Shown one piece after another: positions 12,650-24,613 of a stretch of 64,000 nt of DNA. The DNA is taken from the NCBI RefSeq assembly GCF_900172275.1, contig NZ_FWFT01000002.1, positions 62,001 through 126,000 on the forward strand. The letters run 5' to 3'. The translations under genes and the position numbers were made by a program. Under the pieces are notes generated by a model. That model saw nothing but the letters and a program-made list of their open reading frames with translations. It ran no database searches and was not told the origin of the DNA. Source of the DNA: Pseudooctadecabacter jejudonensis (GTDB taxonomy: Bacteria > Pseudomonadota > Alphaproteobacteria > Rhodobacterales > Rhodobacteraceae). The first letter of the stretch is position 1. The number at the start of each line of letters is the position of its first letter.

Positions 12650-13654
12650 TCAGTCGATAACGTCATCCGTGCGCCCGTGGATCAGGTTTTCGCGCATAAG
12701 GCGATCCGCGAGGCTGCCACGGGGCATGGCGAGGGCCTCATGGTAGGCCATCTGGGACGCATGATGCGCCCGCGCGAGGGCGAACGCCTCCTGCGCGGGC
12801 AGGGCCTCAAACTGCAGCGTGTCATCCGCACGGTGTTGCGCCAGTCGTCCCCAATCCGCAGAGACGACGGTGGCGATCTTGGGATAGCCGCCTGTCGATT
12901 GGTGATCGGCCATCAAGACAGTAGGCACGCCATCACCCGACACCTGCACCGCCCCCCGCAAAACGGGTTCAGACGGGATCGACAACGCACCGTTGGGCGT
13001 AAGGCGCGGCCCGTTCAGCCGCATCCCCATCCGGTCATAGGCGGGGCTGACGCTGAATGCCCCCTCCAGAAAGGTCTGCCGTGCGGCGGCGGTAAAATGA
13101 TGATCTTGCGGGCCCATGACAACGCGGATGGGCCCCTGCGCTGCGGGTGGATCCGGCAAAAAGCCGATCCGGTCGGGGCGCACCTGCGGGTCAATGACCG
13201 TCAAACGCGTCCCCGTCGTGATCATCGCCCCGCCCAGTCCCGTGACGGTTTGTGTGGCGGTGCTGTCCATCCACGACGCAGCCTCAAAGGCGCCCGCTAC
13301 TGCGATGTAGGCCCAACTCCCGCGTGCGCCAGCCCGCAGACTAAGGGTTTCGCCGGGTCGCAACGTCAGGACTTGGGGCGTGCTGGTCTTCGTGCCCGCA
13401 TGATCCACCTCAAACGCGCCACCGGTCAGGGCAAGGGTCATGGGCGCTGCTTGTCCCTTCAGGGTTATGCCACCCAAGGACACCTCAACCGCCGTGCTGC
13501 CTGCGGCATTGCCAAGGGCTGCATGGGCGGCGGCAAAGGCGTCTGGGTCCATGGGGCCAGAGGGTGAAATGCCGTACCGCAGCCCGCCTCTGCGGCCCGC
13601 GTCTTGCAGGCTGATCAAGGGGCCAGCGGCCACGACCTCAAGTTGGGCCGTCAC
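12650..13654 (-). CDS. pxpC: 5-oxoprolinase subunit C (KipA / biotin-dependent carboxylase-like)
   Basis: Large component of the ATP-dependent 5-oxoproline hydrolase that recycles pyroglutamate to glutamate. It begins LEVVAAGPLISLQDAGRRGG with the family motif RYGISPSGPMD, and shows GAFEAASWMDSTATQTVTGLGG (split across residues about 115-140) and the conserved YDRMGMRLNGP. 334 residues, normal. Last gene of pxpABC; its ATG overlaps the pxpB stop. The order A-B-C on the minus strand supports PxpABC rather than a urea amidolyase. Confidence 0.88.
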   Translation of the reverse strand: MTAQLEVVAAGPLISLQDAGRRGGLRYGISPSGPMDPDAFAAAHAALGNAAGSTAVEVSLGGITLKGQAAPMTLALTGGAFEVDHAGTKTSTPQVLTLRPGETLSLRAGARGSWAYIAVAGAFEAASWMDSTATQTVTGLGGAMITTGTRLTVIDPQVRPDRIGFLPDPPAAQGPIRVVMGPQDHHFTAAARQTFLEGAFSVSPAYDRMGMRLNGPRLTPNGALSIPSEPVLRGAVQVSGDGVPTVLMADHQSTGGYPKIATVVSADWGRLAQHRADDTLQFEALPAQEAFALARAHHASQMAYHEALAMPRGSLADRLMRENLIHGRTDDVID

Positions 13655-14346
13655 GGCGTGACGCCTTGTCGGGCCATGTCATCGGCGCTGATCCGGTTGA
13701 ACTGCACCCGGTCCCCCACCTGAAACGCGGTTGGGGCGTCGGCGGCCCCGGTCAAAATTTGCGTAGGCGACCGGCCGATGACGGACCAGCCGGTGGGCAT
13801 CGTCAATGTCGTCACCAGGCATTGCCGGTCCGCAATCATCACAGCGCCCGCAGGCACACCGGGCACAGCGGCGGATTTGCGCGGCACGTAAATGGCGTCT
13901 GGCACGCCGCCCAAATAACCATAGCCGGGCGCAAAGCCGAACATCAGGACATCATAGTCGCCCGACAGATGCGCGTTGATCACCCCATCGCGGCTCATCC
14001 CTGTGGTTTTCGCCACCGCGGCAAGGTCAGGCGCAAAGGGCGCGTCATAGCACACATCGATGACGCAGGTTTGCCCAGACGTCGGCGCGACGTCGGCCTC
14101 TAATAGAAGATGTTCCACCGCTTGGGTCACCGCGCCGTGGTCCGTCTGCAGCGGATCAAAAACAACCATCAGATTGACCAAGGCAGGCACCCATTCGGTG
14201 ACCCCTTCGATCGGTGCATGTGACAGCGCCTGATCCAGCGCGCGGATGCGGGCGTGGGCCCCCGCCTCGAACATGTCGGCAAAGGTCACAAGGACGCCGT
14301 AGTCGGCAACCGGCGTGCATGTCGGCATGCGCGGCACGTGGATCAC
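13651..14346 (-). CDS. pxpB: 5-oxoprolinase subunit B (KipI / allophanate hydrolase subunit 1 family)
   Basis: Partner of PxpC. Visible family motifs are DVCYDAPFAPDLAAVA, FGFAPGYGYLGG and VPAGAVMIADRQ. A GTG at 14346 overlaps the pxpA stop, but GGAGG is almost on top of it; the GTG at 14337 (spacing about 10) or the ATG of MPTCTPVADYG may be the true start. About 225 residues, normal. Confidence 0.87.
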   Translation of the reverse strand: MIHVPRMPTCTPVADYGVLVTFADMFEAGAHARIRALDQALSHAPIEGVTEWVPALVNLMVVFDPLQTDHGAVTQAVEHLLLEADVAPTSGQTCVIDVCYDAPFAPDLAAVAKTTGMSRDGVINAHLSGDYDVLMFGFAPGYGYLGGVPDAIYVPRKSAAVPGVPAGAVMIADRQCLVTTLTMPTGWSVIGRSPTQILTGAADAPTAFQVGDRVQFNRISADDMARQGVTP

Positions 14347-15104
14347 CCCTCCAAAAACGCAGCTAAGGTCACGCCATGCGCCGTGAGACGGGCGCGAATA
14401 TCCCGCGCCATGGCGACAGCTGTTGGGCCATCGCCGTGCACGCAGATCGACTGCGCCTTCAGCGCGATGGGCTCGCCACCCACCACCGGCATCTGGCCAG
14501 TCTCCAGGAACGACAGCAACCGTGCCGAGGCTTGGCCAGCGTCATGGATCATCGCGCCAATCTGTCCTCGCGGCACCAACTGACCGTTGGGCAGATAGCC
14601 GCGATCTGCAAAAACCTCAGAAAACACCGGATGGTCCGCGGCGCGGGCAGCCTCCTCGCTTTGCGTGCCGGAAATGGCCAAAAGCGCCAGCTGCGGATCA
14701 AGGGCGCGAATGGCCGCCACGATCGCATCCGCCACACCGCGCTCCCGCGCGGCCAGATTGCCCAGCGCGCCGTGCGGTTTGACATAGGCCACCTTGACGC
14801 CCGCGAGGGCCGCAATCCCCTGCAACGCCCCAATCTGCGCCACCACCATGCGCCCGATTTCATCAGGCGCCATGGGGATCACCCTGCGTCCAAATCCCAA
14901 CGGATCATTGAACCCAGGATGCGCGCCGACAGTGACGCCTTTGTCGCGCGCCTGACAGAGGGTCCGATACATCGTATCGGGGTCGCTGGCATGACCGCCG
15001 CAGGCCACATTGGCCGATGTCACGATATCCAGCATGGCCGTGTCATCGCCCATGGACCAAGGCCCGAACCCTTCCCCCAAATCTGCATTCAGATCAATCT
15101 GCAT
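14343..15104 (-). CDS. pxpA: 5-oxoprolinase subunit A (LamB/YcsF family)
   Basis: Catalytic-type subunit of 5-oxoprolinase. N-terminus QIDLNADLGEGFGPW and TSANVACGGHASDP are the signature of the LamB/YcsF family; VGAHPGFNDP, VKPHGALGN and CVHGDGPTAVAMA follow. 253 residues from the ATG at 15104; the frame stays open upstream to 15392, but that part overlaps dctB on the other strand and is not family-like. Divergent from dctB across about 110 bp. Confidence 0.9.
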   Translation of the reverse strand: MQIDLNADLGEGFGPWSMGDDTAMLDIVTSANVACGGHASDPDTMYRTLCQARDKGVTVGAHPGFNDPLGFGRRVIPMAPDEIGRMVVAQIGALQGIAALAGVKVAYVKPHGALGNLAARERGVADAIVAAIRALDPQLALLAISGTQSEEAARAADHPVFSEVFADRGYLPNGQLVPRGQIGAMIHDAGQASARLLSFLETGQMPVVGGEPIALKAQSICVHGDGPTAVAMARDIRARLTAHGVTLAAFLEG

Positions 15105-15215
15105 CGGCCACCTGTTTCTGCGCGTCCTGCCATTGGGCCAGCTTTTGGCGGTGAGGACAAGCCGACTCTGACGGGTGATCTTGCCTTTTGCGCCATGCCA
15201 CGTCACGTCTAGGCC

Positions 15216-16967
15216 ATGGGAACGATGCGTGGACTTGGTGTGGTGGGTGTGCTGGCCCTTTTGGGGGTGCTTGCAGCGGGCCTGCATGTCGTGTCGTTCT
15301 CCTATTTCAAAACACAAGAGATTGACCGCGCCGCCGCCCGCCTGACGCTCTACACCAGTACGCTCACGTCCGAATTGCGCCATTTCGCCCATCTGCCGTT
15401 CCTGCTGTCGCTGGATCCGGTGGTTGTGGCGACATTATCAGGCGCCCCTGCGGCTGATCTGGACCGCCGCTTGGCGCGCTTTTCGCAAAGTGCCGGGGTT
15501 GACGCGATCTATCTGATGGACGGGACAGGGCTGACCGTCTCCGCCTCAAACGCGGCCACGCCCAGCAGCTTCAAAGGACAATCCTACGGGTTTCGCCCCT
15601 ATTTTCAGGCCGCCCTGCGCGGCGAATTGGGCGAATTCTACGGCATCGGTGCCACCACGGGCATCCCTGGGTATTTCTATGCACTCGCTGTGCGCGCCGC
15701 GACGCCTCCGGATCGCGGGGTGATTGCGATCAAGGTTGATCTGTCCGAGGTGCAGGACAATTGGCAGGCCTCTGGAGAGCGGATCATTCTGGCCAATGAC
15801 GACGGCGTGGTGTTGCTGGCCTCAGACCCTGCGTGGCGCTACCGGACGTTGACAAAACTCAGCGAAGGTCAACGCGACCGGATCGTTGCCTCCCGCCAGT
15901 TCGGCGCCGAAGGGTTGGCCCCGCTGGACGCCGCACTGGACGTGTCTGCGCAATCGGCGGTGCTCGATGGAGAACGGCTGCTGTACTTGCAAACCGGCAA
16001 TTTACCCAACGGCTGGACGCTGCATTTCTTTGTGCCCGATGATGCGGCGTGGGCGCGGGCGTGGCTTGCGACAGGGGCGTTTTTGACGCTGCTTTTGATC
16101 AGTTTCAGTGTGTTTCAGGTGGCCCGCGTGCGCCGCATCCGGTCCGCGCTGCGCCGCTCCGAACGCGAAGAAACCGCCCTGCGGGCTGCCAACGCCCAAT
16201 TGGCGGTTGAGATTGAGGACCGCCGCGCCGCCGAAGCCAGCCTGCAAAAAACGCAAAGAGAGTTGGAACGCGCGGGCCGCTTGGCCGCGCTGGGCCAGTT
16301 GGCCTCGTCAGTGACCCATGAATTGGGCCAGCCCATCGCGGCCATGCGCAACCAGCTGGCGGCCTCCGAGATGACGGTGGGGGCCACGCCGCTGCACGAC
16401 AAGATGCAAGGGCTCGTGGCGCGGATGGAAAACATCACCCGTCAGCTGAAATTCTTTTCCCGCAAGGGGCGTGATCGGTTTGAGGTCTTTGATCTGCGCG
16501 CCGCGATGACAGCCACGTTGGACTTGATGGAGGCCACAATTGCCGCGCGCGGGGCCCACGTGCTGCTGGACGATGTGGCAGGCGATCTGACGCTAGAGGG
16601 CAACAAAATGCGGATTGAGCAGGTGATGACGAACCTCATCCGCAATGCACTGGATGCGGTGGAGGACGCGGACGTGCAAAACGTCACGATCCGCATGGGT
16701 GGGGAAGCAGATACGGTATGGTTTGCGGTGGCCGACACGGGCCACGGGTTGCGCGGGCAAAGCTTTGATGACTTGCGCGAACCCTTTGCCACCAGCCGCG
16801 AAAGCGGGCGGGGCATGGGTCTGGGCCTGACGATTTCCGCGGGCATTGTCACCGATCACGGCGGTACAATCACCGCGCAGGACTGCGCCGCGGGAGGCGC
16901 TGTGTTCCACGTGACGTTGCCGCGCAGGCACAGCAGCCCACCACAGACCCAAGGAGCCGAGCAATGA
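15216..16967 (+). CDS. dctB: DctB-type sensor histidine kinase
   Basis: Membrane sensor for a TRAP-transported substrate. One helix (about 7-27), an extracytoplasmic PDC-type sensor, a second helix near 282-303, a coiled-coil linker (EIEDRRAAEASLQKTQREL), then HisKA with ASSVTHELGQPIAAMRNQL (His368) and HATPase with NLIRNALDAV, VADTGHGL and GMGLGLTIS. The HELGQP box is typical of DctB kinases. 583 residues. Its stop overlaps the dctD start (ATGA), so the pair is co-translated. The ligand is unknown; C4-dicarboxylate is only the family default. Confidence 0.87.
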   Translation: MGTMRGLGVVGVLALLGVLAAGLHVVSFSYFKTQEIDRAAARLTLYTSTLTSELRHFAHLPFLLSLDPVVVATLSGAPAADLDRRLARFSQSAGVDAIYLMDGTGLTVSASNAATPSSFKGQSYGFRPYFQAALRGELGEFYGIGATTGIPGYFYALAVRAATPPDRGVIAIKVDLSEVQDNWQASGERIILANDDGVVLLASDPAWRYRTLTKLSEGQRDRIVASRQFGAEGLAPLDAALDVSAQSAVLDGERLLYLQTGNLPNGWTLHFFVPDDAAWARAWLATGAFLTLLLISFSVFQVARVRRIRSALRRSEREETALRAANAQLAVEIEDRRAAEASLQKTQRELERAGRLAALGQLASSVTHELGQPIAAMRNQLAASEMTVGATPLHDKMQGLVARMENITRQLKFFSRKGRDRFEVFDLRAAMTATLDLMEATIAARGAHVLLDDVAGDLTLEGNKMRIEQVMTNLIRNALDAVEDADVQNVTIRMGGEADTVWFAVADTGHGLRGQSFDDLREPFATSRESGRGMGLGLTISAGIVTDHGGTITAQDCAAGGAVFHVTLPRRHSSPPQTQGAEQ

Positions 16968-18256
16968 CCGACACCCGCGTGCTGATCATCGACGACGACC
17001 GCGCCATGCGCTCCTCCCTTGTGGATTTGATAGAGGCCGCAGGCTGGACCGCCAAGGCGCTGGCCCGCGCGACCGAAGTCCCCCGCTGGGTGGCGCAATT
17101 CAGCCCCGATGTGATCCTGTCGGACGTGCGGATGCCGGATATGTCCGGCCTTGATCTGTTGCGCAGTCTGGACGATGCCCCACCCGTCGTTCTGATTTCC
17201 GCTCATGGGGATATCCCAACAGCGGTCGAGGCGATGAACAACGGCGCCTATTCCTTTGTCGAAAAGCCGTTTGATCCCAAACGTTTGTTGTTGATCCTGC
17301 GCCATGCCTCTGACCAACACCGCATGCGCCAAAGCAATGACCGCCTGAAAACCCGCCTGCGTGAGGTCACGGGGCTGGACCGTCACCTGTTGGGGCAGAC
17401 GCCCGACATGCAGCGGCTGCGGGATATGATCGCACTGCTGGCCGACAGTGAGGCGTCGGTGCTGATCACCGGCGAGACCGGCACCGGTAAGGACCTGACC
17501 GCGCGGGCGTTGCATGATCTGTCGGGGCGGGGCGACCGGCCGTTCGTGGCGGTGAACGCCGCCCAGATCAACGCAGAACAGCTGCCGCATATCGCGCAGT
17601 CTGCCAATGGCGGCACGTTGTTTCTGGACGAGATTTGCGCCTGCCCTGCGCCCCTTCAGCCGACGCTGCTGCGTCTGATTGATGCGGGCGAAGTGTTGGC
17701 CCAAGGGCAAGGCGTGCCCGATCAGGTCACGTTGCGCGTGGTATCGGCCACCAACGAAGACACCGAACAGGCTGTGGCGGACGGGCGGTTGCGGGCGGAT
17801 TTGCTTTACCGTCTCAGCGGGTTCACCCTGTCGCTGCCGCCCTTGCGCGCGCGGCTGGATGATGTGCCGATGCTGGCACTGCGGTTCTTGCAAGACAGTG
17901 CCGCCGCGCAAGATGTCCCCGTGCCCGAATTGACCGAAGCGGACCTGACCACGCTGATCGCCCACGACTGGCCGGGCAACCTGCGCGAATTGCGCAATGT
18001 GGCCGACCGGCGCGTGTTTCTGGCGCGCCAAGGCGGCGGCACCATGGCGGATGCCTTGGCCTCGGATGCAACACAGGCCCCCACACGCCCCGGCCTGCGT
18101 GAAGCTGTCGCCGCGTTTGAACGCCAAATGATCGCCAAGGCCATTCAGGCGCACGCTGGCCGGATGGACGACGCGGCAGAGGCTTTGGGCATCGGGCGGC
18201 GCACCCTCAACGAAAAGATCGTCAAGCTGGGCCTTGATAAAGACGCGCTGCTATAG
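16964..18256 (+). CDS. dctD: DctD-type response regulator lacking the GAFTGA loop
   Basis: REC domain (phosphoacceptor Asp54 in ILSDVRMPDMSG), AAA+ domain (Walker A GETGTGKD at 170-177, Walker B GGTLFLDEI near 216-224) and a Fis-type C-terminal HTH (AAEALGIGRRTLNEKI). In normal NtrC-family activators about 40 residues, including GAFTGA, separate the NAA box from GGTLFLDE; here only about 14 do (NAAQINAEQLPHIAQSANGG). The loop that contacts sigma-54 is therefore absent with no frame disturbance. It may activate sigma-70 RNA polymerase, as the NtrC of R. capsulatus does, or act as a plain DNA-bound switch. 430 residues. Confidence 0.85.
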   Translation: MTDTRVLIIDDDRAMRSSLVDLIEAAGWTAKALARATEVPRWVAQFSPDVILSDVRMPDMSGLDLLRSLDDAPPVVLISAHGDIPTAVEAMNNGAYSFVEKPFDPKRLLLILRHASDQHRMRQSNDRLKTRLREVTGLDRHLLGQTPDMQRLRDMIALLADSEASVLITGETGTGKDLTARALHDLSGRGDRPFVAVNAAQINAEQLPHIAQSANGGTLFLDEICACPAPLQPTLLRLIDAGEVLAQGQGVPDQVTLRVVSATNEDTEQAVADGRLRADLLYRLSGFTLSLPPLRARLDDVPMLALRFLQDSAAAQDVPVPELTEADLTTLIAHDWPGNLRELRNVADRRVFLARQGGGTMADALASDATQAPTRPGLREAVAAFERQMIAKAIQAHAGRMDDAAEALGIGRRTLNEKIVKLGLDKDALL

Positions 18257-18379: not shown

Positions 18380-19390
18380 ATGTCCAAATTCATGAACCGT
18401 GCGGCCATCGCCGCCCTTGCAACTGCCTGCGCCACCACTGCTGTGGCGGAGGAATGGAATGTGTCGCTGTGGGGCTCGCCTCGCGCATTCACCGCCCACG
18501 TGGAAAAAATCGCAGAGCTGGTGGACGAAAAAACAGGCGGTGAATTCACCCTCAACATCAGCTACGGCGGCCTGTCCAACAACCGCGAAAACCTCGATGG
18601 CATTTCCATCGGCGCGTTTGAAATGGCCCAGTTCTGCGCGGGCTATCACCGCGACAAGAACCCCTCGATCACCGTGCTTGAGTTGCCGTTTCTTGGCGTA
18701 AGCTCCCTTGAACAAGAGGTTGAGCTGTCGATGGCCGTCTACCAGCACCCTGCGACAGTGGCCGATCTGGCCCGTTGGAATGCGACCCTGCTGATGCCGT
18801 CGCCCCTGCCCCAGTACAATATCGCCGGTGTGGGCGATGCCCCTGCCGCGCTGACTGATTTCGAAGGTCTCAGCGTGCGTGCCACGGGTGGCATCGGGGC
18901 CGCGATGGAAACCGTCGGTGCTGTGCCCACGTCCATGTCTGCCTCCGAGGTGCGTCAGGCAATGGACAGCGGTGTGGTTAAGGCCGTGGCCTTCGCCCCC
19001 CATGCGCACATGTCATTCGGCACCATTGAGAACGCGACGTGGTGGACGGAAAACCTCAACCCGGGCACTGTGAATTGCCCCGTGGTCGTGAACACCGACG
19101 CCCTCGATGGGCTGAGCGACGATCACCGTGAGGCGCTGCTCGGCTCCGTAGATGAGGCGCTGGATCACTACATCGCCAACTACAACGGCGCCACGATGGA
19201 GGCTTGGGGCCCCGCCTTGGAAGAGCGCGGCATCACCCGCGTGTCGTTCTCAGACGATGAAATTGCTGCGTTCAAAGAGGCCGCAGCAGCGCCAGCCGCC
19301 GCCGCGTGGATCGAGCAAAACAGCGCCGCCGGCCTGCCCGCGCAAGAGCTGTACGATATGGTCACCGGCATGATCGCCGACGGATCGTAA
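18380..19390 (+). CDS. dctP: TRAP transporter substrate-binding protein (DctP family)
   Basis: Periplasmic binding protein (336 residues) with a signal peptide ending TTAVA before EEWNVSLWGSPRAFTAH. DctP-fold features include the ligand-region arginine segment LSVRATGGIGAAMETVGAVPTSMSAS (read as two pieces) and PVVVNTDALDGLSDD. ATG at 18380 has GGGAGG upstream. Next to dctQM and to the DctBD sensor pair, so it probably also informs the kinase. The substrate is not evident; the downstream enzymes point to a nucleoside-like compound rather than a C4-dicarboxylate. Confidence 0.86.
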   Translation: MSKFMNRAAIAALATACATTAVAEEWNVSLWGSPRAFTAHVEKIAELVDEKTGGEFTLNISYGGLSNNRENLDGISIGAFEMAQFCAGYHRDKNPSITVLELPFLGVSSLEQEVELSMAVYQHPATVADLARWNATLLMPSPLPQYNIAGVGDAPAALTDFEGLSVRATGGIGAAMETVGAVPTSMSASEVRQAMDSGVVKAVAFAPHAHMSFGTIENATWWTENLNPGTVNCPVVVNTDALDGLSDDHREALLGSVDEALDHYIANYNGATMEAWGPALEERGITRVSFSDDEIAAFKEAAAAPAAAAWIEQNSAAGLPAQELYDMVTGMIADGS

Positions 19391-19399
19391 ACCCCAATG

Positions 19400-19429
19400 C
19401 CCCCGCGCCCGACCGGCGCGGGGGTTTTT
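19400..19429 (+). terminator. Terminator-like hairpin between dctP and dctQ
   Basis: CCCCCGCGCC (19400-19409) and GGCGCGGGGG (19415-19424) pair perfectly around 5 bases and run into TTTTT. It lies 10 bp after dctP and about 40 bp before dctQ, as expected for a partial terminator that keeps the binding protein in excess. Confidence 0.85.
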
Positions 19430-19468
19430 CTGTGCGATACTGACATTTGAACAAAGGGGGCATGACGT

Positions 19469-20086
19469 ATGGCCACCGCATCCTTGGTGCTGACCGATGA
19501 CAGCACGCTGAGCAAACTGGACCGCGCCTTGTTGCGCCTCGAACGGGCCTTTGCCCTGATCAGCGGGTTGGCGGTGTTCGGTCTGATGGTTTTGGCCGTC
19601 GTGTCCGTGACGGGCCGCAATGCCTTTCAAAACCCGCTGCCCGGCTATGTGGATTGGATCGAACAAGCCATGCCCCTGATCGCGTTCATGGGCATATCCT
19701 GGGTCATGCGCGAAGGCGGTCATATCCGCATGGATATCGTCGTGGGGCAGCTCAAGGGCCGTGCGCTTTACCTCACTGAACTGATCACGACCTTGGCGGT
19801 GCTGATCCTGATGGTGCTGCTTGTCTGGGGATCCTGGGCGCATTTCCAACGCAGCTTTGATTTTGCCGCCCCCATGTGGAGCCGCGACAGTTCCATGGAC
19901 ATCGCCCTGCCAATTTGGCCCGCCAAGCTGATGGCCCCCTTGGCCTTTGGCGTGCTGGTGGCACGCCTGCTGTTGCAGGTCTGGGCCTATGGGCGCGCCG
20001 TTGTGACCGGACAGGCGATTGCCGTCCCCCTGATTGCTGATGCCGCCACACAGGCGCGCATGGAAGCCGAACAGCTGGAAGACTGA
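19469..20086 (+). CDS. dctQ: TRAP transporter small permease (DctQ family)
   Basis: A four-helix membrane protein of 205 residues. Helices lie near 32-52, 66-85, 107-127 and 147-167, with the family motif GYVDWIEQAMPLIAFMGISW. Followed 5 bp later by dctM. Part of the TRAP carrier, driven by a sodium gradient in known members. Confidence 0.85.
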   Translation: MATASLVLTDDSTLSKLDRALLRLERAFALISGLAVFGLMVLAVVSVTGRNAFQNPLPGYVDWIEQAMPLIAFMGISWVMREGGHIRMDIVVGQLKGRALYLTELITTLAVLILMVLLVWGSWAHFQRSFDFAAPMWSRDSSMDIALPIWPAKLMAPLAFGVLVARLLLQVWAYGRAVVTGQAIAVPLIADAATQARMEAEQLED

Positions 20087-20091
20087 AGAAC

Positions 20092-21492
20092 ATGGAACCG
20101 ATTGATATTGGATTGTGGGTCACCGGTGGCCTGTTGGTCATGGTGGTGCTGGGGATGCGCGTGGCCTTTGCCGCGGGCCTTGCGGGCCTCATCGGGCTGA
20201 TCTGGATTTTCTGGGCGCGCAAGGATTTCGCCATGGACGATTTCGGCTGGGCCCTCACCGTGGCCACCAAAACAGCCGGACAGGTGCCCCATTCCAAGGT
20301 GTCGTCACAGGCTTTGTCCCTGATCCCCACCTTCATCCTGATTGGCTATCTTGCCTATTACGCGGGCCTGACCAAAGCGATGTTTGAGGCCGCCAAACGC
20401 TGGATCGCCTGGGTGCCGGGCGGGTTGGCCGTGTCCACCGTCTTTGCCACCGCAGGCTTTGCGGCTGTATCGGGTGCATCTGTCGCCACGTCCGCCGTGT
20501 TTGCGCGCATCGCGATCCCCGAGATGCTCAAGATCGGGTACAACAAACAATTCGCCGCCGGTGTTGTGGCCGCAGGCGGCACGTTGGCGTCGCTCATCCC
20601 GCCCTCTGCCATTCTGGTGATCTATGCGATCATCGTGGAACAGGACGTGGGCAAGCTGTTGTTGGCGGGCTTCATTCCGGGGCTGTTTTCGGCCTTTGTC
20701 TACGCGGCGCTGATCATCGGCATGGCGCTGACAATCAAGGGCTTCGGCCCGCCGGTCACAGGATTCACATGGCGCGAACGCTTTGCCTCCCTGCCGCCTG
20801 CCCTGCCCATCGTCTTTGTCGTCGTCACCATCATCTGCTTTGTCTACAACCCCTTTGGCGGTGACGCCTGGGGCACCCCGACCGAGGGCGGCGCGATCGG
20901 GGCCTTCGTCGTGTTCCTCATGGCGCTCTACCGGGGCATGCGCTGGCCGCAACTGAAAGACGCGCTGCTGGAAACCGCCAAGCTCAGCGTGATGATCTTC
21001 ACCATCATCTGGGGCGTGCTGATCTATGTGCGGTTTCTGGGCTTTGCCGAATTGCCCGCCGCCTTTTCCGACTGGATCACATCCCTGACCATGGACCCGA
21101 TGTTGATCCTTATTTGCATCCTGCTGGCCTATGCGGTGCTGGGCATGTTCATGGATGCGATTGGCATGCTGCTGTTGACCCTGCCTGTGGTCTATCCGGC
21201 TGTCATGGCGCTGAACGGGGGGGCGGATGTGGCCGCCGCTGACAGCACCTTTGGCATGTCGGGGCCCATGTGTGCCATCTGGTTCGGCATTCTGGTGGTC
21301 AAAATGGCCGAGTTCTGTTTGATCACGCCCCCCATTGGCCTCAACTGCTTTGTGGTGGCTGGCGTGCGCGATGACCTCAGCGTGCAGGACGTGTTCAAGG
21401 GGGTGACGCCATTCTTCATCGCTGACGGCGTGACCATTGCGCTGCTGGTGGCCTTCCCATGGATCGTGCTCTGGTTGCCCAGTTTGGCATAG
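20092..21492 (+). CDS. dctM: TRAP transporter large permease (DctM family)
   Basis: A polytopic membrane protein of 466 residues with the DctM hallmarks SLIPTFILIGYLAYYAG, GTLASLIPPSAILVIYAI, AVLGMFMDAIGMLLLTLPV and LITPPIGLNCFVV. About 12 helices. Ends 46 bp before the first SAHH-like gene, without a terminator, so the enzymes downstream are probably in the same transcript. Confidence 0.87.
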   Translation: MEPIDIGLWVTGGLLVMVVLGMRVAFAAGLAGLIGLIWIFWARKDFAMDDFGWALTVATKTAGQVPHSKVSSQALSLIPTFILIGYLAYYAGLTKAMFEAAKRWIAWVPGGLAVSTVFATAGFAAVSGASVATSAVFARIAIPEMLKIGYNKQFAAGVVAAGGTLASLIPPSAILVIYAIIVEQDVGKLLLAGFIPGLFSAFVYAALIIGMALTIKGFGPPVTGFTWRERFASLPPALPIVFVVVTIICFVYNPFGGDAWGTPTEGGAIGAFVVFLMALYRGMRWPQLKDALLETAKLSVMIFTIIWGVLIYVRFLGFAELPAAFSDWITSLTMDPMLILICILLAYAVLGMFMDAIGMLLLTLPVVYPAVMALNGGADVAAADSTFGMSGPMCAIWFGILVVKMAEFCLITPPIGLNCFVVAGVRDDLSVQDVFKGVTPFFIADGVTIALLVAFPWIVLWLPSLA

Positions 21493-21538
21493 GGCGCGGG
21501 GTTTGACGGGGTCCGGCCTGCGCGCTACCACCCCTTCC

Positions 21539-22816
21539 ATGGATCAAAACACGCCGCACCCGACTGACCACAACGGCCCCGACATTCAGGCGCTGGTGGA
21601 TGAAGGCCGCAACCGCATCGATTGGGTGCACCGCTATTCGCCGGTGATGAACGGGCTGGTGCGGCGCACGGTGGGCGATGGCAGCCTGGCGGGCAAACGC
21701 ATTGCCGTCGTTGTGCATCTTGAGGCAAAGACCGCCTATCTGGCGCAGGTGCTGGCCGACGCAGGCGCTGATGTGATCGCGGCGGGCAGCAATCCATTCA
21801 CCACCAATGCCTCCGTCGTGGCCGCCCTGCGCGACAAAGGCATCCGCGTCGTGTCCGAGGCGGGCGGCACCCACGCCACATGGGAGGAAGAGCTACGCGC
21901 CGCCGCCGACCTCGAACCCGACTACATCATTGATGACGGGGCGGAACTCACCATGCGGGTGGGCATCCATCGCCCCGATGTCTTCAAGCGTCTCAAAGGC
22001 GTGTCCGAAGAAACAACCACCGGCACCGCGCGCCTGCACGCCATGGCCGCCGCTGGCAAACTGCCGTTTCCCGCGCTCACGGCCAATGATGCACGCTGCA
22101 AACATCTGTTCGACAACCGCTATGGCACGGGCCAGACCACCGTGCAGGCCATGTTGATGCTGACAAACCGGCAGGCCGCTGGGGCCGTTTGCGTCATCGT
22201 GGGCTACGGCTATGTGGGGCGTGGCATCGCGGAATACCTGTCAAAACTGCGGGCCAAAGTGCGCGTGGTTGAGGTCGACCCCGTCCGCGCGCTTGAGGCA
22301 CATATCGACGGCCACGTGGTTGGCACCGCCGCTGATGTCTTGCCCGACGCCGATTTCGTGATCACCGCCACGGGCGGAATGCGGGCCGTGACCACGCCCG
22401 AATTCAACGCCCTGCCGGATGGCGCGATCCTGTGCAACGCAGGCCACCATGATCTAGAGGTTGATGTGGAGGCCTTGGCGACCATGGCCCAGCGCACCAC
22501 ACAAGGCGCGACTGACATGGTGACTTACCATCTGCCGGACAAAGACCTGCATGTGCTGTCCAATGGCGCGCTGGTGAATATCGCAGGCGGCAGCGGCCAC
22601 CCGGTTGAGATTATGGACCTCACCTTCGCGGTCCAGGGCCTTGGCGCCCATTATCTGGTGAACACCCCGATGGACCCCGGCGTGCACGTATTGCCAAGGG
22701 CCGTGGACGACAGCATCGCAGCGGCCAAGCTGGACAGCCTTGGCGTCACGCTGGACGCCCCGCGATCAGAGCAAACCGATAACCACGCAGATTTCATCGA
22801 CAGGATCACCCTATGA
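21539..22816 (+). CDS. S-adenosylhomocysteinase-like protein with retained catalytic residues
   Basis: NAD-dependent SAH hydrolase fold, 425 residues (true SahH is about 460-490). Retained relative to human SAHH: DDGAELT (Asp132/133), VSEETTTG (Glu158), Lys188, FDN (Asp192, Asn193), NAGHHDLEVD (His303) and SGHP (His354), plus the Rossmann motif VGYGYVGRG at 221-229. The C-terminal tail that donates Lys and Tyr to the neighbouring subunit's NAD (ending YRY in SAHH) is missing. It is followed with a 4-base overlap by a degenerate paralogue and then a nucleoside hydrolase, behind a TRAP importer. It is probably not the housekeeping SahH; a 3'-keto-type reaction on an imported nucleoside is a reasonable guess. 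Confidence 0.8.
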   Translation: MDQNTPHPTDHNGPDIQALVDEGRNRIDWVHRYSPVMNGLVRRTVGDGSLAGKRIAVVVHLEAKTAYLAQVLADAGADVIAAGSNPFTTNASVVAALRDKGIRVVSEAGGTHATWEEELRAAADLEPDYIIDDGAELTMRVGIHRPDVFKRLKGVSEETTTGTARLHAMAAAGKLPFPALTANDARCKHLFDNRYGTGQTTVQAMLMLTNRQAAGAVCVIVGYGYVGRGIAEYLSKLRAKVRVVEVDPVRALEAHIDGHVVGTAADVLPDADFVITATGGMRAVTTPEFNALPDGAILCNAGHHDLEVDVEALATMAQRTTQGATDMVTYHLPDKDLHVLSNGALVNIAGGSGHPVEIMDLTFAVQGLGAHYLVNTPMDPGVHVLPRAVDDSIAAAKLDSLGVTLDAPRSEQTDNHADFIDRITL

Positions 22817-23673
22817 CCGCCGCACAGGATTGGGCCCTGCGACATCTACCGCTCACACGGTCCGCTTTGGCGCGGCTGGATACAGACGGCCTGCAGGTGG
22901 CGCTGGATATGGACCGGTCGGCGGCGGCGGAGGGTCTGGCCGCAGCCTTGGCAGAGGCCGGGGTCACCGCCCTGTGGGGCCAAGACGCCGATGTCGTGAT
23001 CGGCGCGGCGCAGGTGACGATCAACGGCACCGTCCACGCGCTTGATGCCACCGCCTTGGGCCACCTTTACGCGATTGAGATTGGCTTGGGTCAGGCCGCG
23101 GTTATGGCGCTGCTTGACATCACGAACCTGCAAATCGCAGGCCGCCCTGTGGGCGTCATCGGGTATGATCCAGCAGGACGCAGCATTGCGGCCCATGCGC
23201 GGGCCATGGGCGCGCGTGTCACGGTGATTGACGCAGATCCAGTGGCCGCCGTACGCGCGCTTCACGATTGCCATGATGTCGGGGACGGCGCTGCGGTGCG
23301 GACTGTCGATGTGGTCTTCGTCACCTCTGCCCGTGCGGCCGCACTGGTCATGGCACATGCGGATCATCTGCGGCCCGATACCTTGATCGCAAACACCTCC
23401 CCCCACGTCGGCCCGCGCAACTTTGCCGATCTTAATCCGGCCACCGACGTGCGCGCCCACGTCACCGAACACACCCGAAGCGATTCATCCTGCATCAAAC
23501 TGATCGCACAAGGCGCCCCCCTGCAGACCGCAGCAGCGCAGGGTTTGCCGCTTGAGGGACGCGACGTTCTGTTTGCACTCGCCCTCAGCACGCTTCATCA
23601 CCGCACCTCGCCCGATCCCCTCACAGCGGCTGAACGCGATGTGGCTGCAGACATCCTCACCCATAAAACCTGA
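22813..23673 (+). CDS. Degenerate S-adenosylhomocysteinase-like paralogue
   Basis: 286 residues, overlapping the preceding SAHH-like gene by 4 bases. The segment IEIGLGQAAVMALLDITN, then IAGRPVGVIGYDPAGRSIAAH and ARAMGARVTVIDADP, aligns with SAHH (YGTGQS..., IAGKxVVVxGYGxxGKG, ARGxGAxVxVxExDP). The Rossmann GxGxxG has become GYDPAG, and the N-terminal substrate motifs (DDGGDLT, SEETTTG, FDN) are absent. It probably lacks activity alone and may act as a partner subunit of its neighbour, because SAHH subunits complete each other's cofactor site. That role is inference. Confidence 0.72.
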   Translation: MTAAQDWALRHLPLTRSALARLDTDGLQVALDMDRSAAAEGLAAALAEAGVTALWGQDADVVIGAAQVTINGTVHALDATALGHLYAIEIGLGQAAVMALLDITNLQIAGRPVGVIGYDPAGRSIAAHARAMGARVTVIDADPVAAVRALHDCHDVGDGAAVRTVDVVFVTSARAAALVMAHADHLRPDTLIANTSPHVGPRNFADLNPATDVRAHVTEHTRSDSSCIKLIAQGAPLQTAAAQGLPLEGRDVLFALALSTLHHRTSPDPLTAAERDVAADILTHKT

Positions 23674-23689
23674 CGCAAGGCCCGATCCG

Positions 23690-24613
23690 ATGAAACTGAT
23701 CCTCGACACCGACCCCGGCGTAGATGACGCCATGACCTATTTCTACGCCCACGCCCACAGCGCAATTGACCTCATTGGGATCACATCGGTGTTTGGCAAT
23801 GTCACAGTCGACAACGCCTATCGCAACGCCCATTGGCTGACCCAAACCACCGGTGCCACAGCCGACGTGCGACGCGGGGCGGAGACCCCGTTGCAGATCA
23901 CGCCGAACCCGCCGTCTGACTACGTGCACGGCCCCACAGGCTTTGGCGACGTGGACATTGGTGAGGTTGCGATCCCCCCCCAGGATGAGACAGCCGCCGC
24001 CTATCTGGTGCGCATGGCCGCCGCCAGCCCCGGTGAAATCACGCTCTGTGCCATCGGGCCCATGACCAACGTGGCGCGGGCGATCCAGGCGGATCCTGCG
24101 TTTCTGGACAACCTCAAGCAGCTGGTCATCATGGGCGGGTCGCTGGATGCGGGCGGCAATGTCACCACCCAGGCCGAGGCCAATTTCTGGAACGACCCGC
24201 ACGCGGCTGAGGTCGTGTTCAGCACGCCCACCGAAACAGAAATCCTCGTCGTGGGCCTCGATGTGACCACGTTGATCAGCTTTTATCAGGCCGATTTTGA
24301 TGAATTGGCCGCGCAAAGCCCCAAGGCCGGCGGCTTTCTGCGCGACATCGGCCAGTTCTACATGCGGTTCTACGAAGAGGTCACGGGCACCTATCAGTGT
24401 TACCTCCATGACGTGGCCGCGATCATCGCAGCCGAACAACCCGCCCTTTTCACGTTTGAGGACACGCGCCTGCAGATGGTCTGCGACGGCGACGCGATCG
24501 GTGCGATGAGGCGCAGCCAAGAGCCCGACCGCCCAATCGTCCGCGTGGCCATGACGGTGCAGTCAGAAGCCGTGCGCACCCAATACAAAGCAGTGGCCGC
24601 GCAGAACCCCTAA
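23690..24613 (+). CDS. Nucleoside hydrolase (IunH/RihA family)
   Basis: Cleaves the N-glycosidic bond of ribonucleosides using a bound calcium. The signature MKLILDTDPGVDDAM is intact, with later family motifs CAIGPMTNVARAI, LVIMGGSL, EANFWNDPHAAEVVF and LHDVAAII. ATG at 23690 gives 307 residues, normal. Lies 16 bp after the second SAHH-like gene and ends three bases before convergent tdh. The context suggests it works on the product of the SAHH-like pair or on the imported nucleoside. Confidence 0.87.
   Translation: MKLILDTDPGVDDAMTYFYAHAHSAIDLIGITSVFGNVTVDNAYRNAHWLTQTTGATADVRRGAETPLQITPNPPSDYVHGPTGFGDVDIGEVAIPPQDETAAAYLVRMAAASPGEITLCAIGPMTNVARAIQADPAFLDNLKQLVIMGGSLDAGGNVTTQAEANFWNDPHAAEVVFSTPTETEILVVGLDVTTLISFYQADFDELAAQSPKAGGFLRDIGQFYMRFYEEVTGTYQCYLHDVAAIIAAEQPALFTFEDTRLQMVCDGDAIGAMRRSQEPDRPIVRVAMTVQSEAVRTQYKAVAAQNP

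Follow-up and report, generated by a model that had tools for sequence, protein, structure and literature searches.

The window, a 64,000-nucleotide stretch of Pseudooctadecabacter jejudonensis (contig NZ_FWFT01000002.1, positions 62,001 to 126,000 of the forward strand), encodes two proteins related to S-adenosylhomocysteine hydrolase (SAHH), here termed SAHHa (A) and SAHHb (B), between the genes of a tripartite ATP-independent periplasmic (TRAP) importer and a nucleoside hydrolase (NH). A first-pass annotation had proposed these six genes, and all of them were recovered where it had placed them:

18380-19390, + strand: DctP, TRAP solute-binding protein (Pfam DctP above cut-off)
19469-20086, + strand: DctQ, small TRAP permease (Pfam DctQ above cut-off)
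20092-21492, + strand: DctM, large TRAP permease (Pfam DctM above cut-off)
21539-22816, + strand: SAHHa (A), 425 amino acids counted from ATG (Pfam AdoHcyase and AdoHcyase_NAD)
22813-23673, + strand: SAHHb (B), 286 amino acids (Pfam AdoHcyase_NAD)
23690-24613, + strand: NH, IU-type, with the motif DTDPGVDDA (Pfam IU_nuc_hydro)

Pfam matches were found for all three TRAP subunits, and the NH, which scored 264 bits against IU_nuc_hydro (cut-off 34), carries the DTDPGxDD motif. Spacings of 4 to 46 bases had been described; the 46 bases between dctM and SAHHa stand, while dctP and dctQ are 78 bases apart and the SAHHa stop and SAHHb start overlap by 4 bases (ATGA). NH follows SAHHb after 16 bases and is the probable third member of the SAHHa-SAHHb module. 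The annotation had made the standing of SAHHa hinge on whether the genome holds a second SahH, and one was found elsewhere (G000:C6:540744-542117, 481 bits, 33% identical to SAHHa); the pair is therefore accessory, not housekeeping.

Judged by its sequence, SAHHa is an intact archaeal-type SAHH or S-inosylhomocysteine (SIH) hydrolase-like enzyme. Residues 21-410 match the solved archaeal-type SAHHs 5TOV and 3X2E in a PDB sequence search (E about 1e-98), and the score of 704 bits against the curated NCBIfam model NF004010 (cut-off 512) means that the match is not due to chance. The residues named in the annotation (D133, E158, K188, D192, N193, H303, and H354) are present, as is His60, which it had not listed. 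In human SAHH numbering, used from here on, the full-length match comes together with His55, D131, E156, K186, D190, N191, His301, and His353, and this combination places SAHHa in the SAHH family. Its base-binding motif, HLEAK, fits the HxExK pattern of SIH-preferring SAHHs; in published assays, enzymes with HxExK favour SIH and those with HxTxE(Q) favour S-adenosylhomocysteine (SAH) (PMC10978960). The annotation was right that the C-terminal Lys/Tyr tail is missing, but the absence has no special meaning, since one study describes archaeal-type SAHHs as lacking 8-11 C-terminal residues (PMC7765604). SAHHa thus shares with the enzymes of Thermotoga maritima (3X2E, 5TOV) and Pyrococcus furiosus (7R37) a near-full-length match, the HxExK motif, all catalytic residues, and a short C-terminus. 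Unlike these enzymes, it is accessory and forms an overlapping tandem with a relative that lacks the catalytic histidines, and in many carriers A adjoins importer and purine genes.

That relative, SAHHb, has AdoHcyase_NAD as its sole SAHH-family Pfam match above cut-off and aligns to SAHHs from approximately residue 74 onward, in the part that forms the cofactor domain. As the annotation had reported, it carries GYDPAG and lacks the substrate motifs; His55, His301, His353, and all substrate residues are gone, leaving neither the catalytic histidines nor the substrate residues of an SAHH enzyme. In its AlphaFold model (14 sequences, pLDDT 87, pTM 0.83), a small N-terminal domain is followed by a Rossmann domain and C-terminal helices. 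When the model was compared with the PDB, the 50 structures examined among the matches listed were SAHH-family entries throughout, with TMq values of about 0.6-0.8 and rmsd of 4-7 Å (3x2f: TMq 0.75, approximately 5 Å); SAHHb is thus predicted to keep an SAHH-type fold. According to two published studies, the histidine of the motif hydrogen-bonds the 5'-hydroxyl in SAHH (PMC7765604) and the gate histidine touches O5' of inosine (PMC10978960). Because the missing histidines normally contact the 5' group, B should be incapable of the 5' step, and because the ribose residues are lost as well, the most plausible role for the B of the window is that of a partner subunit.

Scanning GTDB contigs gave 207 confirmed stretches, and the 80 best loci were retained; gene calls in high-GC loci still include some reverse-strand shadow frames. 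Twenty pair loci were recognized, which are all the loci found with A at least 54% identical: the window, L004-L020, L105 (G223), and L106, the last being plasmid NZ_CP084754.1, which is labelled Roseateles with the organism flagged as unverified. This search bore out the conservation of the gene pair. A second SAHH-like gene lies directly after A on the same strand in all 17 of the closest loci (L004-L020, A 54-77% identical), the tandem is present in 20/20 loci, and the genes overlap to some extent in 19/20. In 17 loci, a start codon available to B gives a 4-base overlap with A, and six of these also allow an earlier start; the overlap is 1 base in L016 and 8 bases in L017, and L008 has a gap of 15 bases. 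The distances among A and among B proteins are correlated (r 0.40, 18 loci; 10 of 5000 permutations were as high). Hosts include Pseudomonadota (Rhodobacterales-type, Erythrobacter, Aestuariivirga, and metagenome-assembled genomes (MAGs) of Granulosicoccaceae and Pseudomonadales), Leucobacter and further Microbacteriaceae (Actinomycetota), an Acidimicrobiaceae MAG, and Dormiibacterota. Carriers are rare: matches were found in 2/390 genomes of the order of the window, its own included (E 1e-70), and, at E 1e-95, in 1/385 genomes of its class (its own), in 1/377 (the centre genome only) and 2/299 (both already known) in further searches, and in 5/48 genomes of the order of L007. Among 16 other genomes (15 that carry pair loci, plus the genome of L026, which has a more divergent A/B arrangement), 12 encode a further SAHH elsewhere. 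In L026, from Saccharopolyspora, one uninterrupted frame encodes both an A-like SAHH and a degenerate one, and third-position GC stays steady over the join, an arrangement that hints at physical association. The same stretch (L026:3-12338) holds two A/B-like SAHH sets, one of them single-frame, along with an inositol-phosphate synthase, a short-chain dehydrogenase/reductase, a PfkB kinase, a PNP_UDP_1-family phosphorylase, and a haloacid dehalogenase-type (HAD) protein; it looks like a carbocyclic nucleoside cluster, presumably of the aristeromycin type.

The division of residues seen in the window recurs across these loci. His55, D131, K186, D190, N191, His301, His353, and the HxExK motif are present in 20/20 A proteins and E156 in 18/20. 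Among the B proteins, His55 is found in 0/20 and His301 and His353 in 2/20 each, and D131, E156, K186, D190, and N191 are all kept in 11/20. The 82 control SAHHs, from loci without an A-B tandem, have His55 in 79, His301 in 79, His353 in 81, and the remaining five residues in all 82; the three controls without His55 and His301 are those of L028, L029, and L045. For three unsaturated pairs, all from lineages other than that of the window (a fourth was saturated), dN/dS was 0.11, 0.13, and 0.24 for B and 0.03, 0.09, and 0.14 for A. B is under purifying selection, and this, with the conserved overlap with A, rules out a pseudogene or debris. One MAG has a B gene with an internal TAA close to its end (L010:6393-7670).

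A tree of 72 SAHHs placed 24 rows in the A clade (support 100/100), including L021, L022, L025, and the A-like part of L026, and the B clade comprised 19 rows (100/100) with the B-like part of L026; the B proteins of L019 and L020 fall outside. On a reduced tree, from which 17 distant, long, or near-duplicate rows including the B of the window were dropped (the B of L004 is still a long branch), the 18 His-less SAHHs left, 14 of them B and four of a Rubrobacteraceae type, lie on one side of a branch with 100/99 support, and loss of the histidines is one change. Forcing A (with L021, L022, and L025) and B into one clade gave a p-AU of 0.006, and forcing A together with all His-less proteins gave 0.019; a version that omitted L021, L022, and L025, which belong inside the A clade, from the A group gave 1e-5, an unfair test that overstated the result. 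A recent tandem duplication of A is therefore disfavoured as the source of B, and we favour, without regarding it as proven, a separate His-less family that would have paired with A.

Members of such a family also stand alone. In the order of the genome with L045, a Rubrobacteraceae MAG, 38/39 genomes have an SAHH match at E 1e-60; 20 have a close His-less type (at least 71%; three are only partial matches). Of these 20 genomes, 17 carry a more distant SAHH as well. In 13/13 genomes read, the close type has His55 replaced by Pro and His301 by Gly or Ala and keeps His353, and in 9/13 it directly follows CbiQ and a QueT-like S component of an energy-coupling factor (ECF) importer (L028, L029, L045, L133, L134, L136, L137, L139, and L140; the components at L028, L029, and L045 were identified by Pfam).

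Importers are also frequent at the pair loci themselves. Importer binding proteins or permeases occur at 14/20 pair loci (13 ATP-binding cassette (ABC) importers and the TRAP importer of the window) versus 6/62 controls, three of which are ECF cases; the count is biased because the context queries were drawn from eight pair loci and L045, and of the 12 pair loci from which no query was taken, six have importers, two of these being almost the same as loci that supplied queries. A PnrA/Bmp nucleoside-type importer is found in L007, L010, L019, and L020, with only the permeases of this type in L008, a sugar-type importer in L006, L012-L016, and L106, and an amino-acid-type importer in L009. Purine enzymes, counted as amidohydrolase, nucleoside hydrolase, adenosine deaminase, phosphorylase, or urate oxidase, occur at 11/20 pair loci (L017 via a single phosphorylase match) versus 16/62 controls, so importers set the pair loci apart more clearly than purine enzymes do. 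All 16 of these controls owe their count to the amidohydrolase, perhaps reflecting the known SAH-deaminase route; the amidohydrolase could not be named beyond the purine/aminohydrolase group, as four tested proteins fell below NCBIfam cut-offs and one was searched against the PDB. The fullest set is that of NZ_CP084754.1, where a divergent LacI gene is followed by A, B, a binding protein, two permeases, an amidohydrolase, an ATPase, and an NH. Catalase-like genes noted by eye near three loci, and histidine-utilization-like genes by SAHH-like genes in two unrelated stretches (L011:12348-17535 and L028:512-4706), were left as coincidence.

The TRAP genes of the window belong to a larger unit that includes two upstream genes outside the SAHH finding:

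15216-16967, + strand: sensor histidine kinase of the TRAP unit
16964-18256, + strand: response regulator with sigma-54 interaction domain, TRAP unit

DctP has matches in 20/61 genomes at E 1e-30, its own included, and eight of the other 19 were read, five of them congeners and three further members of the family. Kinase, regulator, and dctPQM stand together in six of the eight and dctPQM without kinase and regulator in two. SAHHa and SAHHb are beside dctPQM in none of the eight stretches, and in the seven with sequence there, the genes right after dctM differ from those of the window and from each other. Conversely, no DctP or DctM match was found at the 19 pair loci other than the window. 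The annotation's inclusion of the TRAP importer in the system accordingly fails on co-conservation, and, given the synteny in the eight relatives, we reject the TRAP unit as the importer of the pair. The NH of the window has matches in 5/61 genomes at E 1e-40, its own included, the others being 37-44% identical; in L126, one of the eight relatives, a distant nucleoside hydrolase (33%) lies 3.6 kb before dctP. Because the TRAP unit stands without the pair and the relatives hold nothing close to the NH, SAHHa-SAHHb-NH appears to have been added behind the two-component and TRAP unit, which looks older and probably carries something other than the substrate of the module. On the minus strand beside this unit (13651-15392), the window encodes LamB/YcsF and PxpB-like proteins, the latter below the NCBIfam cut-off; relatives of both are also present in G010 (L119), which may hint at what the TRAP unit imports. 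Upstream of dctP, neither the window nor six relatives showed a convincing -24/-12 site.

From the observed genes, residues, overlap, conservation, clades, and context, we infer the substrate, the heteromer, and the pathway order of an accessory nucleoside-scavenging module. SAHHa would oxidize the ribose 3'-OH with bound NAD+, remove H4', and expel the 5' thiol from SIH, SAH, or a similar nucleoside thioether, after which addition of water and reduction of the ketone would yield inosine or adenosine. SAHHb, which lacks the histidines acting on the 5' group, would be a non-cleaving partner, most likely joining A in a mixed oligomer and tuning or stabilizing it in the manner of a prozyme, and NH would split the resulting nucleoside into base and ribose. 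We give this combination, in which A cleaves the 5' bond by 3'-keto chemistry beside a non-cleaving B and NH frees the base, about an even chance of being correct. The recurrence of the pair in distant bacteria, often by importers and purine enzymes, suggests a two-protein breakdown of scavenged nucleosides. Several observations weigh against it. The A relatives L021, L022, and L025 (49-53% identical) have no adjoining B, and His-less SAHHs stand elsewhere without A alongside, so in some genomes each does without the other in cis; the AlphaFold model of the natural L026 fusion is poor (pTM 0.49) and too weak to show an interface. The control SAHHs also carry the E (62/82) and K (63/82) of HxExK, which is therefore not peculiar to A. 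Co-conservation of the NH with the pair, as anticipated in the annotation, holds at 4/20 loci, two of them near-identical (L014 and L015), and not at the other 16, and the importers and purine enzymes searched for are absent from L004, L005, L011, L018, and L105, some of which are on short contigs. No deaminase adjoins the pair in the window (the rest of the genome was not searched for one), so that SIH would need another source.

Three other explanations were weighed. B may itself be an enzyme, a His-less SAHH that carries out 3'-oxidation and H4' abstraction without 5' elimination, before or after A, and that in Rhodobacterales and certain Granulosicoccaceae has degenerated into a structural subunit; it might be a nucleoside 3'-redox enzyme, a 4'-epimerase, or an oxidative base-releasing enzyme, although these reactions are chemical guesses. 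The intact set of five residues in 11 B proteins, the Lys/Asp/Asn motif seen in four stand-alone relatives, the retained His353 and ECF neighbours of those relatives, and the single His-less clade speak for this proposal, and intact B proteins may perform redox chemistry of their own. The B of the window and eight others have lost at least one of the five residues, however, so these proteins cannot act by the 3'-oxidation/H4' route. The explanation is tentative and less likely than the partner reading. Equally tentative is its extension, in which His-less SAHHs are a distinct class of NAD-dependent nucleoside enzymes performing 3'-keto chemistry without 5' elimination, fed by dedicated importers (ECF in the Rubrobacteraceae type; in other bacteria, PnrA, sugar-type, or amino-acid-type ABC importers together with an SIH-type partner), with A and B jointly dismantling a modified nucleoside, taken up from outside, that is beyond either protein by itself.

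That the whole block, TRAP importer included, is one operon for nucleoside uptake and catabolism we consider improbable. The genes share a strand, no + strand terminator-like site was found in the 46-base gap, and importer genes lie close to the pair in many other carriers; co-transcription of the TRAP and SAHH genes is possible. The promoter and terminator scan performed at chance level, and the gap folds no better than shuffled sequences. Set against the operon are the relatives in which the TRAP unit occurs without the pair and with other genes after dctM, the lack of DctP or DctM at every other pair locus, and DctP itself, in which an Arg sits at the usual carboxylate-binding place and whose best PDB sequence matches, 4nap and 4pgn, are weak (E about 1e-14). 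Least credible is an extra housekeeping SAH hydrolase with a decaying duplicate and no special function. B does evolve fast (branch length 2.65 for that of the window versus 0.21 for its A), but the tandem and overlap are kept across phyla, B is under purifying selection, and trees with A and B as sisters are disfavoured.

The reading of B as a non-cleaving partner of A has parallels. In prozyme pairs, such as the deoxyhypusine synthase of trypanosomes, an active enzyme is joined by a dead relative, the roles that the residues predict for A and B; here, tree tests do not favour an origin of B by duplication of A. The human SAHH-like protein AHCYL1/IRBIT is described as inactive and as a partner of AHCY, and B would resemble it, as a presumably non-cleaving SAHH-fold protein that modulates an active one, if B binds A; B comes from a bacterial branch, and no special kinship is claimed. 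A re-use of the fold for other chemistry on a modified nucleoside is described for AgmF, an SAHH homologue of angustmycin biosynthesis that dehydrates a nucleoside, does not accept SAH, and loses its activity in H56A and H299A variants (PMC8599513). AgmF keeps both histidines, whereas B has lost them, and the role of A and B appears catabolic. No prior description of such an SAHH pair or His-less clade was found in the parts of the open-licence literature that were searched.

On sequence evidence, the A-B pair is a genuine, conserved variant of the known SAHH family. Current database rules name intact His-less members adenosylhomocysteinase: the two intact B proteins tested, from L014 (11197-12441; 412 bits) and L009 (5178-6413; 424 bits), lack the three catalytic histidines and pass the NF004005 cut-off of 275 bits, so that databases would mislabel intact B proteins if our reading is true. 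SAHH usually counts as a housekeeping enzyme with a single gene, and a conserved overlapping pair together with a His-less clade that often adjoins importers would point to nucleoside chemistry or subunit control within the SAHH fold.

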